A stretch of 64,000 nucleotides of DNA from Jiangella alkaliphila (lineage in GTDB: Bacteria > Actinomycetota > Actinomycetes > Jiangellales > Jiangellaceae), in assembly GCF_900105925.1 (NCBI RefSeq), contig NZ_LT629791.1, positions 558,001 through 622,000 of the forward strand, in the 5' to 3' direction. Under the pieces are notes generated by a model, which saw only the letters and a program-made list of their open reading frames with translations, was not told where the DNA came from and made no database searches. Made by a program: the position numbers and the translations under genes. Positions 29,187 through 47,855 of the stretch are shown piece after piece. The stretch's first letter is position 1, and each line of letters begins with the position of its first letter.

Positions 29187-29854
29187 GAACGGACCAGTCC
29201 TTCCAGGACAGACGTGAAGAAGCCGAGGCCGTCGGTGGTCGGCCCGGTGAGCGACTCGACCGCGTGCTCGGGGTGCGGCATCAGCCCGACGACGTTGCCG
29301 CGGGCGTTGGTGACGCCGGCGATGCCGCGGTAGGAGCCGTTGGGGTTGTCGCCGGCGTACCGGACGACGACCCGGCCCTCGCCCTCGAGCTCGTCGAGCG
29401 TGCGCTGGTCGGCGACGTAGCCGCCCTCGCCGTTCTTCAGCGGGATGACGATCTCCTGGCCGGCCGCGTAGCCCGACGTCCACGCCGTCGACGTCGACTC
29501 GACCCGCAGCGGCTGGTCGCGGCAGACGAACTTGCGGTGGTCGTTGCGGATCAACGCGCCGGGCAGCAGGTGCGACTCGCACAGCACCTGGAAGCCGTTG
29601 CAGATGCCGAGCACCGGCAGCCCGCCGCGCGCTGCGTCGACCAGCGGCTCCATGACCGGCGCGAACCGCGCGATGGCGCCGCAGCGCAGGTAGTCGCCGT
29701 AGGAGAAGCCGCCCGGCAGCACGACGGCGTCGACGCCGTGCAGGTCGGCGTCGCCGTGCCAGAGCGAGACCGCCTCGCCGCCGGCGACCCGGACGGCCCG
29801 GGCGGCGTCGCGGTCGTCGAGGGAGCCGGGGAACGTGACGACGCCGATGCGCAT
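29183..29854 (-). CDS. purQ: Phosphoribosylformylglycinamidine synthase subunit I, glutaminase (223 aa)
   Basis: Class I glutamine amidotransferase that delivers ammonia to Pur[21 protein letters not shown] opens the domain. The nucleophilic Cys is in [12 protein letters not shown], and the catalytic His/Glu pair is in [15 protein letters not shown]-subunit features such as [17 protein letters not shown] are present. ATG 29854 shares one base with the purS stop and its own stop overlaps purL, so the three are translationally coupled. Confidence 0.97.
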
Positions 29855-30105
29855 CAGACGCCGGCCTCCACGTGGACGGTGAAGTCCTCGATGACGGGGT
29901 TGGCCAGCAGCGTGGCAGCGGCGCGCTCGATCTCGGCGACGGCCTCGGGCGTCGCCTCGCTGTCGAGCTCGATCTCGAACCGCTTGCCCTGCCGGACCGA
30001 GGCGACTCCCTCGAAGCCGAGCCGGCCGAACGCGCCCTGCACGGCTTTGCCCTGCGGGTCGAGAATCTCGGATTTGAGCATGACGTCGACAACGACGCGG
30101 GCCAC
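29854..30105 (-). CDS. purS: Phosphoribosylformylglycinamidine synthase subunit PurS (83 aa)
   Basis: Small dimeric linker subunit that holds PurQ and PurL together. [46 protein letters not shown] matches the family from its second residue. GTG 30105 is chosen since GAGGAG lies upstream and the family begins here; the open frame continues upstream without similarity. First gene of the operon. A structured 108-bp repeat lies 60 nt before its start. Confidence 0.95.
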
Positions 30106-30165
30106 GGGCACGCTCCTCGCGCGGCGGGATACTGGGGCGTGCCCAGGATACCCAGCCCGTCTGCC

Positions 30166-30273
30166 GGCCGGGCGAGACCGGCGGTAAGAGGGGGCCGGAG
30201 GCCTCCTCGACATCGTCGGTGCGAGACGCCCGGACGAGTGGCTGTGCAGGAGCTCGCCCGGCCGGCGACTCCA
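30166..30273 (-). repeat. ~110-bp structured dispersed element, copy 2 (upstream of purS)
   Basis: Read on the minus strand, this matches 46389-46498 over its length, with shared blocks such as CTCGCACCGACG, CCTCCGGCCCCCT and ACCGCCGGTCT. The ends pair as GGCCGGGCGAG with CTCGCCCGGCC. In the other copy both arms differ together (AAG/CTT instead of GAG/CTC), which is covariation of a base pair. An inner GAGG-AGG-CCTC hairpin is also kept. Confidence 0.75.
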
Positions 30274-30317
30274 ATGTTCGGCGCGTGTCGACGGGCAGGA
30301 CCAGCTATCGCGCGGTC

Positions 30318-30360
30318 GACGGTGGTTCGGTCCGCGCCCTGCTCGGGCCGAACCACCGTC
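30318..30360 (-). terminator. Long hairpin downstream of the winged-helix regulator gene
   Basis: Perfect 13-bp arms (30318-30330, 30348-30360; GACGGTGGTTCGG) extend by three more pairs, one a wobble, to a 16-bp stem with an 11-nt loop. It lies 107 nt past the regulator's stop on the minus strand, so it most likely ends that transcript. Confidence 0.65.
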
Positions 30361-30466: not shown

Positions 30467-30976
30467 TCAGTCCGGGACGACCAGCCGGAAGCCGACGCCA
30501 CGCACGGACACCACGCGCAGCTCCTCGACCACCAGCGCCAGCCGCCGCCGCAGCCGTTTCACGGCGGACACGACGGGGTCGGCGTCGCCCAAGTAGCGGG
30601 TCTTCCAGATCCGGGACATCAGCTCCTCGAACGTCCAGACCCGGCCGACCTCCGCCGCGAGCGTGGCCAGCAGGTCGAACTCCCGCGCGCTCAGCGCGAT
30701 GTCGACGTCACCCCAGGTGACCAGCCGTGACACCAGGTCGACACGCAGACAGCCGCGCTCGATGACGCGGGTCTCGAGGTCCTCGACGCCGGCCGGGCTG
30801 TCGGGCACCCCGTCCTCGCCGACGAGCAGCCGCCGCGCCGCCTCCGTGTCGGGTGCGATCATCACGATCGCCCGCCGGTCGATCGCCTGCGCGATCGCGG
30901 TCGAGTCCTCCAGCGTCGTGCCGACGCAGATGACGAATGGCGTGATCGCTTCAATGTATGGCGCTGCGGACACCAT
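30467..30976 (-). CDS. Winged-helix (OmpR/PhoB-type DNA-binding) regulator lacking a phospho-acceptor domain (169 aa)
   Basis: The C-terminal 100 residues form a trans_reg_C domain: [40 protein letters not shown] and [15 protein letters not shown]...[12 protein letters not shown]. The N-terminal 70 residues ([38 protein letters not shown]) are receiver-sized but lack the acidic pocket and phosphorylated Asp, so activity would be phosphorylation-independent. ATG 30976 has GGGAG 7 nt before it. It is divergent from the large subtilase gene and may control it (inference). Confidence 0.8.
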
Positions 30977-45238: not shown

Positions 45239-46345
45239 TCAGTCGTGGCCGAGCGCCGGCTGGCCGTGCACCCGGCGCACCCAGGCGATCGGGTCGGCGA
45301 TCTCGTCCTTGGTCGGCAGCGTGGCCGGCGACTCCCAGATGCGGTTGAAGCCGGCCATGCCGACCCGGTCGACGACGGCGTTCACGAACGCGGCGCCGTC
45401 GCGGTACTGGCGCATCTTGGCGTCGAGGCCGAGCAGCCGGCGGATCGTGCGGTCGAGCCCGACCGAGGAGTAGCGGCGGCGCTGGAACCGGCGCCGGATG
45501 GTCTCGACGGACGGGATGACGTCGGGGCCGACGCCGTCCATGACGACGTCGGCGTGGCCCTCGAGCAGCGACATGAACGCCGTCACGCGGTCGAGGACGG
45601 CCTTCTGCGCCGGGGTCTGGACGAGGTCGAGCACCGAGCCGGCGCCATCGGCGGACCGGGCGCTCTCGCCGAGTGCGCGGACGGCTTCGCGTGCCCGGGT
45701 CAGGAACGCGCCGGGGTCGACGTCGGTGGCCTCGACGAACGACTCGATCTCGCCGGCCAGGTGGTCGCGCAGCCACGGCACCGCGGTGAACTGCACCCGG
45801 TGCGTCTCTTCGTGCAGCGTGACCCACAGGCGGAAGTCGTGCGGGTCGACGCCCAGCTCGCGCTCGACGTGGACGATGTTGGGCGCGACGAGCAGCAGCC
45901 GGCCCTGCGCGCCGTCGTCGGGGCCGCCGAGCCGGCCGGACCAGAACGGGTCGAACTGGCCGAGCACCTTGCTGGCCAGGAACGCCAGCAGCGCGCCGGT
46001 CTGCAGCCCGGTGACCTTGGGGCCGACCCGCTGGAACGGGGTGCGCTCGCGGCCCTTCTGCAGCTTGCGCTGCAGCGGCGCGATGATCGTGCGCATGCTC
46101 TGAGCGTTGGCCCGGGCCCAGTTGCCGCGGTCGACGACCACCAGCGGCGCGTAGCCGAGCGAGGCGTCGAGGCCGGTGAAGCCCTTGACGTGCGCCTCGG
46201 CCTCGGCGGCGAGTCGGCGCAGCTCGGCCACCGCCTCGCGGGCCTCGGTGTCGGTGACGGCCGGGCCGGGACCGGCGAGTCGTTGCGCAGTCGCGACCGC
46301 GAGATCCCAGTCGACCATGTCGGGAGCGGCGTCAGCGGTCGTCAT
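45239..46345 (-). CDS. Zinc-dependent metalloprotease, DUF2342/TIGR03624 family (368 aa)
   Basis: Actinobacterial zincin of unknown substrate. [23 protein letters not shown] holds HEExH with a Glu-rich neighbour, [21 protein letters not shown] and [16 protein letters not shown] (a third ligand region) are conserved in the family. No signal peptide. ATG 46345 is probably leaderless: TAGCGT lies 6 nt upstream on the minus strand (46352-46357). It sits immediately upstream of tilS with an 11-bp gap, the usual arrangement. Confidence 0.88.
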
Positions 46346-46357: not shown

Positions 46358-46388
46358 CGTCACTGATCGCCAGGAGACGCCAATCACA

Positions 46389-46498
46389 TGGAGTCGTCGG
46401 CCCGGGCAAGCTCCTGTACGGCCACCCCGTTCCTGCGCCTCGCACCGACGGTTTCGAGGAGACCTCCGGCCCCCTGTCACCGCCGGTCTTGCCCGGCC
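46389..46498 (+). repeat. ~110-bp structured dispersed element, copy 1 (between dacB and the DUF2342 gene)
   Basis: Matches the minus strand of 30166-30273 at roughly four of five bases. The arms GGCCCGGGCAAG and CTTGCCCGGCC pair with one bulged C. An inner GAGG-AGA-CCTC hairpin is kept. It reads toward the dacB stop codon, ending 4 nt from it, and nearly fills the intergenic space. Confidence 0.75.
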
Positions 46499-46502
46499 CT
46501 CC

Positions 46503-47855
46503 TTAGGCACAGCCACAGCCGGCCAGCGCCGCCGCGACGTCGTCGAGCGCGGCCCGCGCCTCGGTCGTGTTGCCGACGTCGTCGGCGAGCACCGCGAACG
46601 CGTAGCCGACGCCGTCGGCGGCCACCACCACGCCGGCCAGCGCACTGACGCCGGTGAGCGTGCCGGTCTTGGCCCGGACCAGTCCGGCCGCGGAGGAGTC
46701 GCCGAACCGGTCGGCAAGCGTGCCGGTGAACGCGGCGACCGGCAGCCCGGTGACGACGGAACGCAGGCCCGGGTGGTCCGGTCCGGCCGCGAGGGCCAGC
46801 GTCTGGGTGATCAGCGCCGCCGGGACCGCGCTGCCGCGGGCCAGCCCGCTGCCGTCGAGCAGCGTCGCGCCGGACGCGTCGAGGCCCAGCTCGGTGAGCG
46901 CCGCGACGACCGCCGGGCCGGCCGCCTCGGACGTCCCGGCCGCACCCGACGCGATGGCGACGTGCCGCGCCAGCACTTCGGCGCCGTCGTTGTCGCTGCT
47001 GGTGAGGACGTCCTCGACGACGGTCGCGAGCGGCGCGGACTCGACGGCGGCCAGCTCGGCGGCGTCGGCGGGCGCGGCGGCCTCGACCGGTTCGCCGTCG
47101 ACGGCGATGCCCTGGTCGGCGAGCAGGCCGGCGAACTCCTCGGCCGCGTCGAGCGGCGGGTCGGCCGGCCGGTCCATGATGTCGGCCGCGAGCGCGGTGG
47201 TCGGCGAGACGACGCTGGGCACGTAGCTCGGCGTCCAGTCAGGGTCCACCGCCGGGCCGGTGAACAGCGAGGCGTCGTAGGACAACGTCACCGCCGCCAC
47301 GCCGGCCTCGGTCAGCGCCTGCGCCGTCGACGCGGCGAGGTCGGCCAGCCGGGTGCCGGCGCCGTCGTCCGCCGTGAGCGTGGGGTCGCCGCCGCCGACC
47401 AGCGTGAGGGCGGACGGGTCCGGCCCGCTGACGACCCGGGTGGTGAACGTGTGGTCCGGGCCGAGCGCGTGGAGGGCCGCCGCGCCGGTGAGGATCTTCA
47501 AGGTACTGGCGGGGGTGTGCGGGTCGGCGCCGGCGGACTCGTACGACGGCGCGCCGGTGCTGAGGTTCAGGACGCTGACGCCGACCCGCCCGCCCAGCCC
47601 GGCGACGCCGAGCGTGGGCGCGAGCACGTCACCGACGGCCGGCTCACCCGCCGTGCCGGCGGTGGCCGGAGCGGCCAGCACCCCCGGCGCGGGCGACCAG
47701 GTCGCCGCGGGCGGCGCCTCGGGGCGGAACAGCGGCGTCTCGGCCGCCGCGGCGTCGTCGGTCCAGGGCAGCCCGGCCGTCTGGTCGAGCACCACCCCGG
47801 CACCGGCCGCGAGCACGACGACACAGCCGGCCACAATCCCGGCCCGCCTCCACAT
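46503..47855 (-). CDS. dacB: D-alanyl-D-alanine carboxypeptidase/endopeptidase, PBP4 class (450 aa)
   Basis: Exported class C penicillin-binding protein that trims or cleaves peptidoglycan cross-bridges. A signal-anchor (RRAGIVAGCVVVLAAGAGVVL) starts the protein. SxxK is in HTPASTLKILTGAAAL, SxN in VLTSSDNDGAEVLARH, and KTG in LVRAKTGTLTGVSALAGVV. The intervening domain (GGDPTLTADDGAGTRLADLA) is typical of S13 peptidases. ATG 47855 is preferred because a G-run lies 5 nt upstream; GTG 47870 is possible. It is divergent from ppa, as commonly seen. Confidence 0.93.
   Translation of the reverse strand: MWRRAGIVAGCVVVLAAGAGVVLDQTAGLPWTDDAAAAETPLFRPEAPPAATWSPAPGVLAAPATAGTAGEPAVGDVLAPTLGVAGLGGRVGVSVLNLSTGAPSYESAGADPHTPASTLKILTGAAALHALGPDHTFTTRVVSGPDPSALTLVGGGDPTLTADDGAGTRLADLAASTAQALTEAGVAAVTLSYDASLFTGPAVDPDWTPSYVPSVVSPTTALAADIMDRPADPPLDAAEEFAGLLADQGIAVDGEPVEAAAPADAAELAAVESAPLATVVEDVLTSSDNDGAEVLARHVAIASGAAGTSEAAGPAVVAALTELGLDASGATLLDGSGLARGSAVPAALITQTLALAAGPDHPGLRSVVTGLPVAAFTGTLADRFGDSSAAGLVRAKTGTLTGVSALAGVVVAADGVGYAFAVLADDVGNTTEARAALDDVAAALAGCGCA

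Follow-up and report, generated by a model that had tools for sequence, protein, structure and literature searches.

A short, probably mobile element with a covarying fold forms putative MIRU-like leaders of genes in Jiangella

In the window, the whole 64,000-nt stretch of the Jiangella alkaliphila genome analyzed here (NZ_LT629791.1, positions 558,001 to 622,000), we found two copies of an element of ~115-125 bp (Table 1). It is probably a short non-autonomous mobile element that becomes the 5' UTR of its host gene, in the manner of the MIRUs (mycobacterial interspersed repetitive units, reportedly described by Supply et al. in 1997, as cited in PMC12548453), being confined to Jiangellaceae in our sample and amplified in part of Jiangella. 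The original prediction had placed the two look-alike stretches correctly, but its identity of ~80% was too low, with 93 identical columns among the 110 of the alignment (~85%). The score of this alignment is 72, while 500 dinucleotide-block shuffles give at most 17, and after the two copies the next best match of the covariance model R2 in the window reaches 17.5 bits.

Copy 2 starts at the stop codon of dacB and is in sense to the next gene (Zincin_2). Copy 1 occupies the gap between purS and the end of a regulator gene on the minus strand (30467-30976). It is oriented away from purS, with a conserved TATCCT box directly downstream of it. A strong hairpin (CGGTGGTTCGGTCC...GGGCCGAACCACCG, 30320-30358) also lies between the regulator gene and copy 1. 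It is likely a terminator, since a similar hairpin is found in the orthologous gap of several element-free relatives.

Table 1. Element copies in the window, their parts and the adjoining genes. R2 scores are those of copies that belong to the R2 training set.
Feature	Position	Strand	Support
purS, adjoins copy 1	29854..30105	-	PF02700, E 2.3e-28
Element copy 1 (subtype A)	30157..30275	+	R2 76.6 bits, E 4.6e-15
Copy 1 P1, 5' arm GCCGGCCGGGCGAG	30163..30176	+	R2 alignment and sequence
Copy 1 P2 arm with CCGGAGG hairpin (30189-30207)	30177..30220	+	R2 alignment and sequence
Copy 1 P1, 3' arm CTCGCCCGGCCGGC	30253..30266	+	R2 alignment and sequence
Zincin-like metallopeptidase gene, sense-downstream of copy 2	45239..46345	-	PF10103, E 3.3e-112
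Element copy 2 (subtype A)	46388..46507	-	R2 98.7 bits, E 4.8e-20
Copy 2 P1, 3' arm CTTGCCCGGGCC	46399..46410	-	Covariation count and R2 alignment
Copy 2 P2 arm with internal loop, capped by the near-invariant CCGRAGG hairpin (46457-46475)	46444..46487	-	Covariation and R2 alignment
Copy 2 P1, 5' arm GGGCCGGGCAAG	46488..46499	-	R2 alignment; both-side changes in 10/10 pairs of the helix (A3)
dacB, S13-family D-Ala-D-Ala carboxypeptidase, upstream of copy 2	46503..47834	-	PF02113, E 1.6e-72

The element is far from being present only twice, as had been supposed. A blastn search with copy 2 returned 42 matches in the J. alkaliphila genome, a covariance model built from 16 copies (R1) gave 66 matches at E<=1, and the rebuilt model (R2, 101 rows) gave 64 copies at E<=1e-4. 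At this same threshold, the 11 congeners contain 57, 46, 34, 20, 14, 12, 6, 1, 0, 0 and 0 copies. From 393 genomes sampled from the class, the element was found only in Jiangellaceae (12 of 22 genomes), and none of the 371 genomes outside this family showed an R2 match under stricter filters with 9 candidates scored per genome. A pattern scan of genomes yielded 53 stretches, of which we regarded those from genomes other than Jiangella as chance matches. No match was found in plasmids with one element copy, in phages with another one, or in viral contigs with the exact element pattern. The absence of further copies and of conserved structure in relatives, which the original prediction had named as the outcome speaking against it, is the opposite of what we observed on both counts.

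We sorted the copies into subtypes A to E, which are our own labels given by simple rules, some copies looking misplaced between B and D. Tandem pairs separated by 1-5 nt occur three times in the J. alkaliphila chromosome (403742-403984, 4006309-4006552 and 1922448-1922694) and once in a congener (G003:C1, 3737323-3737567), as if a copy had been inserted at the end of another or duplicated. At 5463195-5463491 of the J. alkaliphila chromosome, two divergent genes, encoding a helicase with a Helicase_C_2 domain and an S9 peptidase, each have their own sense copy, placed back to back.

Both window copies fold better on the complement of the strand originally written, with z of -5.0 on the plus strand against -3.8 for copy 1, and -2.7 on the minus strand against -0.5 for copy 2. 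The fold consists of a helix P1 (10 pairs plus one closing pair) and an arm P2 (9 plus 8 pairs) with the near-invariant CCGRAGG hairpin as its cap; a third, variable arm lies outside the model, which covers P1-P2. The fold alignment A3 comprises 101 matches in 96 distinct rows and was fitted to the model, which favors structure; in it, 97.0% of the P1 and P2 cells are paired, against 85.2% when shuffled. Changes on both sides were seen in 23 of the 28 pairs (313 cells), a value not reached in any of 500 shuffles, whereas slid controls gave 8-12 pairs and 10-40 cells. The inner P2 arms take part in this covariation, with both-side changes in 12 of 17 pairs. In the first alignment (A2), made with MAFFT and not fitted to the model, 9 pairs and 23 cells were found, against shuffled means of 3.8 and 6.9. 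Selection on secondary structure, as originally proposed, is borne out by these counts. The paired change in the terminal stem is real and reads GGGCGAG/CTCGCCC in copy 1 and GGGCAAG/CTTGCCC in copy 2. G.U pairs greatly exceed A.C pairs (267 against 16 cells, ~17 to 1), which indicates that the functional strand is the one opposite to that of the original prediction. The two-arm P1-P2 fold of the sense strand of the element is therefore strongly supported.

No Rfam family reached the gathering score anywhere in the window, and at relaxed thresholds the element was free of overlapping matches in the 15 loci searched at E<=5 and in 14 others searched at E<=2. Two Rfam RNAs were seen near copies, an msiK leader (L014, 1331-1389, minus strand, 60.9 bits) and an Ms_IGR-5 sRNA (L005, 498-727, minus strand, 83.3 bits). 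One strand of the element resembles a sequence that we take to be the core of the FMN riboswitch (ACCGGCGGTGA), a likeness that was dropped as cmscan gave no FMN match in those same 15 and 14 loci.

Comparison with relatives reveals filled and empty sites. At 47 of 51 compared sites the element is missing from at least one relative, and its presence or absence at exact points between species indicates that the copies are insertions, in agreement with the original suggestion of a non-autonomous mobile element. Since the empty sites are exact and intact, these insertions would be gains in this lineage rather than losses in the relatives. Of these sites, 45 were evaluated by a fixed rule, using one or two orthologs each from four relatives holding 0-1 copies, and 6 by eye. 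The rule calls a clean empty site when, in at least one ortholog, the flanks score at least 40 and 60, the breaks fall within 45 nt and the flanks are no more than 60 nt apart. It was passed by 41 sites and failed by four (1032556, 1213539, 1134566 and 3863027), of which 1032556 looks empty by eye, its left flank being weak. The six sites read by eye come from 13 whose downstream gene starts were searched in 12 Jiangella genomes, and in all six the element is absent in several relatives. The remainder of the 66 matches in this genome comprises 7 further searched sites, 3 second tandem copies, 3 weak matches and 2 sites without ortholog match (4979176 and 2703773).

Among 10 congeners compared at the copy 2 site, G002 and G007 have copy 2 in common with J. 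alkaliphila. It is cleanly absent in G001, G004, G006, G009 and G010, G003 and G011 are also devoid of it, and G008 contains another sequence. The Zincin_2 gene itself is preceded by a subtype B copy immediately before its ATG in G001 and G007. At the purS site, copy 1 was found only in G011 and is absent in the other nine congeners, with gaps that differ in length and sequence. In nuoH, the J. alkaliphila copy lies within the initial codons, where it offers a new GTG start; other copies are found just before the start codon in G005 and G006. Target duplications could be read by eye at two sites, and they differ (TGTGCCT in G007 and GGTGCC in G005). Upstream of panC in G007 (C55, 5750-6550, L223), only the 3' part of the element is left, corresponding to a decayed copy.

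Outside subtype A, 43 of 46 copies are in sense to the next gene (binomial 5e-10 against 50:50). The genes around the copies come from our own crude caller, so all distances are approximate. A separate sense gene follows 54 copies, and for 47 of them the called start lies within 70 nt of the element end, being inside the element in 5 of those 47. Subtype A fits a leader at start codons less well: 13 of its 19 copies are in sense to the next gene and 6 are not, some are located at the 3' end of a gene, and copy 1 of the window is one that points away from its neighbor.

A subset of the non-A copies directly follows a promoter-like motif. Of the 46, 14 have a TANNNT that ends 1-6 nt before the element, against 0.005 as the rate at shifted positions; none of the 19 subtype A copies has one. 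The count of 14 excludes 4979176, in which TAGGGT directly abuts the element. At 12 of these sites, ATG or GTG is preceded by TANNNT at a distance of 6-7 nt in all 26 orthologs used; the sites were preselected for TANNNT in J. alkaliphila, so that this count tests the orthologs and not the choice of sites. For panC, 7 of 10 orthologs were used, and of the other three, two also fit and the third (G007) has the element remnant. No usable ortholog was available for the TANNNT sites 4979176, 1213539 and 3785901. As background, 7 of 60 called genes of the window have TANNNT 4-9 nt before the start. The accessible text of PMC4128351 names TANNNT as the consensus -10 sequence of mycobacteria, and we infer that it acts as a -10 box in Jiangella too. 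With a spacing that we take for that of leaderless genes, the element-free orthologs look leaderless.

Other copies fill stop/start junctions. Some copies carry a reading frame of their own. In subtype C, one frame is open up to a TGA at the element end, shortly before the start, in 6 of 7 copies, and the called upstream gene reads on to this terminal TGA in only 3 of 7. In 3 of 4 subtype E copies, an ORF running from the 5' end of the element terminates at a DTGA that overlaps the next start, which for 1922573 is the start of the tandem copy. The corresponding ORF of subtype B is intact in only 3 copies and decayed in many. Conservation of the ORF at the peptide level was rejected because the reading frames differ between subtypes. 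By our own rule, 24 of the 46 non-A copies have an SD-like string at a distance of 3-12 nt from a following ATG or GTG, and the other 22 do not.

Five copy pairs inherited at shared sites show changes in 20 of 280 paired positions versus 54 of 322 unpaired ones (Fisher 3e-4), although the pairs are not independent, as two J. alkaliphila copies each occur in two of them. They were counted from nine pairs after exclusion of L197, L208 and L219, which are other insertions, and L238, a truncated match. This lower rate of change at paired positions suggests that the fold is maintained once a copy has been inserted. Changes on one side at these sites keep the pair in 8 of 16 cases, marginally above the neutral 0.28 (p = 0.049). 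No masking or exposure of the SD by the fold was seen, SD accessibility in 24 copies being no different from that in shuffled elements (p = 0.39). The fold may serve mobility, RNA stability or protein binding.

The mechanism that we suggest is one in which some activity would move the element in trans, with insertion in sense between the promoter, or a stop codon, and the start codon of a host gene. The inserted copy would then be transcribed as the 5' UTR of this gene. Translation of the host may be maintained by the SD-like string of the element and/or by its own ORF, which would couple translation by ending at or near the host start. If translation survives in this way, insertion in this slot would be tolerated. 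The fold would be needed for the movement of the element and/or for its behavior as a leader.

Several other explanations were weighed. Chance similarity, or low-complexity GC-rich sequence, could be suspected in a GC-rich genome that folds well in general, the more so as copy 2 has a z of only -0.5 on the strand originally read, but it is already refuted by the 64 copies, by the alignment score and by a covariation far above both controls. A stand-alone family of small RNA genes agrees with a stable and conserved fold. It is very improbable nevertheless, as most non-A copies lie in sense ahead of a start codon, with a host promoter or a stop codon on their other side, and so probably within host transcripts. 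A cis-regulatory RNA class, either a riboswitch or a protein-bound leader, kept before the target genes of a regulon, would be consistent with the strongly covarying fold in the sense strand, with the many copies that have a start codon right after them and with the tandem copies at three sites of this genome. However, 50 downstream proteins are unrelated by Pfam (from 51 distinct genes, a 27-aa ORF being left out). The genes include panC, nuoH, those of citrate synthase, NIF3, MOSC and cobalamin adenosyltransferase, regulators and transporters, and four have no family. The same genes occur in relatives without the element, some copies have antisense orientation or lie where genes end, SD accessibility is unaffected by the fold, and Rfam gave no match. 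We rejected the riboswitch or regulon reading on the lack of a common downstream function and on the element-free orthologous sites, and consider such a class improbable. The cis-acting RNA put forward in the original prediction is retained only insofar as most non-A copies would lie in the 5' UTR of the gene that follows them, the downstream genes having no evident common function.

The alternative of a miniature inverted-repeat element (MITE) at the DNA level, in which P1 would be merely a terminal inverted repeat and a DDE transposase would move the copies, deserves more weight than these and is still unlikely. The P1 arms do form an imperfect terminal inverted repeat, the copies are mobile, and short target duplications are seen at two sites. 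Against it, the inner P2 arms also covary, the excess of G.U over A.C (17 to 1) marks one functional strand, and orientation and start-codon position are strongly biased, none of which follows from a terminal repeat. A full-length parent was not found in a weak search, consisting of two end-pattern searches of the J. alkaliphila and G007 genomes that gave no usable pair among the matches listed, the second pattern being poorly chosen and excluding many real right ends. Bacterial MITEs such as MITEAba12, as far as the accessible descriptions go, are likewise small, non-autonomous, multi-copy elements with inverted-repeat ends; they differ from the Jiangella element, which has a conserved inner helix, a single functional strand, a location mostly at start codons and one orientation.

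REP/REPIN sequences, associated with RAYT (Y1) transposases, and elements derived from IS200/IS605 are also dispersed, folded intergenic repeats of high copy number. The Jiangella element differs from them by its larger, two-arm fold and its sense bias, and no Y1_Tnp was found at E<=0.001 in any of the 12 Jiangella genomes. Group II introns and retrons are, like it, mobile structured RNAs, but a reverse transcriptase was present in only one of the 12 genomes (G006) and not in that of J. alkaliphila, and Rfam found no match at the element.

The MIRU-like mobile leader that we favor finds its closest parallels in mycobacteria. According to the accessible text of PMC12548453, MIRUs appear to be mobile, inserting at start codons and carrying a coupled ORF. 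In that of PMC4128351, a gene that is leaderless in Mycobacterium marinum has an M. bovis ortholog whose 5' UTR, 77 nt long, is made up wholly of a MIRU. The Jiangella element is similarly short, dispersed, apparently mobile and, outside subtype A, mostly located at start codons. The MIRU ORF is coupled to the host start at -4 nt; in Jiangella, candidates for such an ORF are seen in 3/4 E copies, which end at a DTGA overlap, in 6/7 C copies, which end in a TGA shortly before the start, and in 3 B copies. Like the MIRU of M. bovis, the Jiangella element would form the 5' UTR of genes whose orthologs look leaderless. The Jiangella element is distinguished by its length of ~120 nt, its strongly covarying fold and its occurrence only in Jiangellaceae in the sample. 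The comparison with MIRUs covers described features of placement and apparent behavior. In the literature on MIRUs, Jiangella repeats, actinobacterial MITEs, leaderless-gene repeats and mobile structured RNAs, as far as it was accessible and with most subscription journals outside its scope, we did not find a description of the element.

MIRUs have been in use for typing for decades, and how MIRU-like units reach start codons is, to our knowledge, an open question. Jiangella provides a second system, with dozens of filled and empty site pairs, close relatives without copies and an RNA fold that can be mutated. With these features in soil actinomycetes, the question of start-codon targeting becomes testable. 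A tentative possibility, to which we give limited credence, is that the element represents a class of mobile RNA leaders in which the fold is part of a targeting mechanism. Acting in the form of RNA or of a folded single strand, the element would be directed to places where transcription or translation begins, such as stop/start junctions or the gap that separates the -10 box of a leaderless gene from its start codon, and leaderless genes would thereby acquire a leader, with MIRUs as a second instance. If this targeting reading is true, MIRUs are not a mycobacterial oddity. The insertions point to a natural route for leaderless genes to gain a 5' UTR, and they caution against reading every RNA with strong covariation in front of many genes as a riboswitch.

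Elsewhere in the window, the G+C content falls from ~0.72-0.74 to 0.64-0.68 between 19000 and 23000. Genes for a GntR/UTRA regulator and a Peripla_BP_6 protein lie in this segment, together with one for an asparagine-synthase-like protein whose coding score is weak in our own caller. The segment is possibly acquired DNA.
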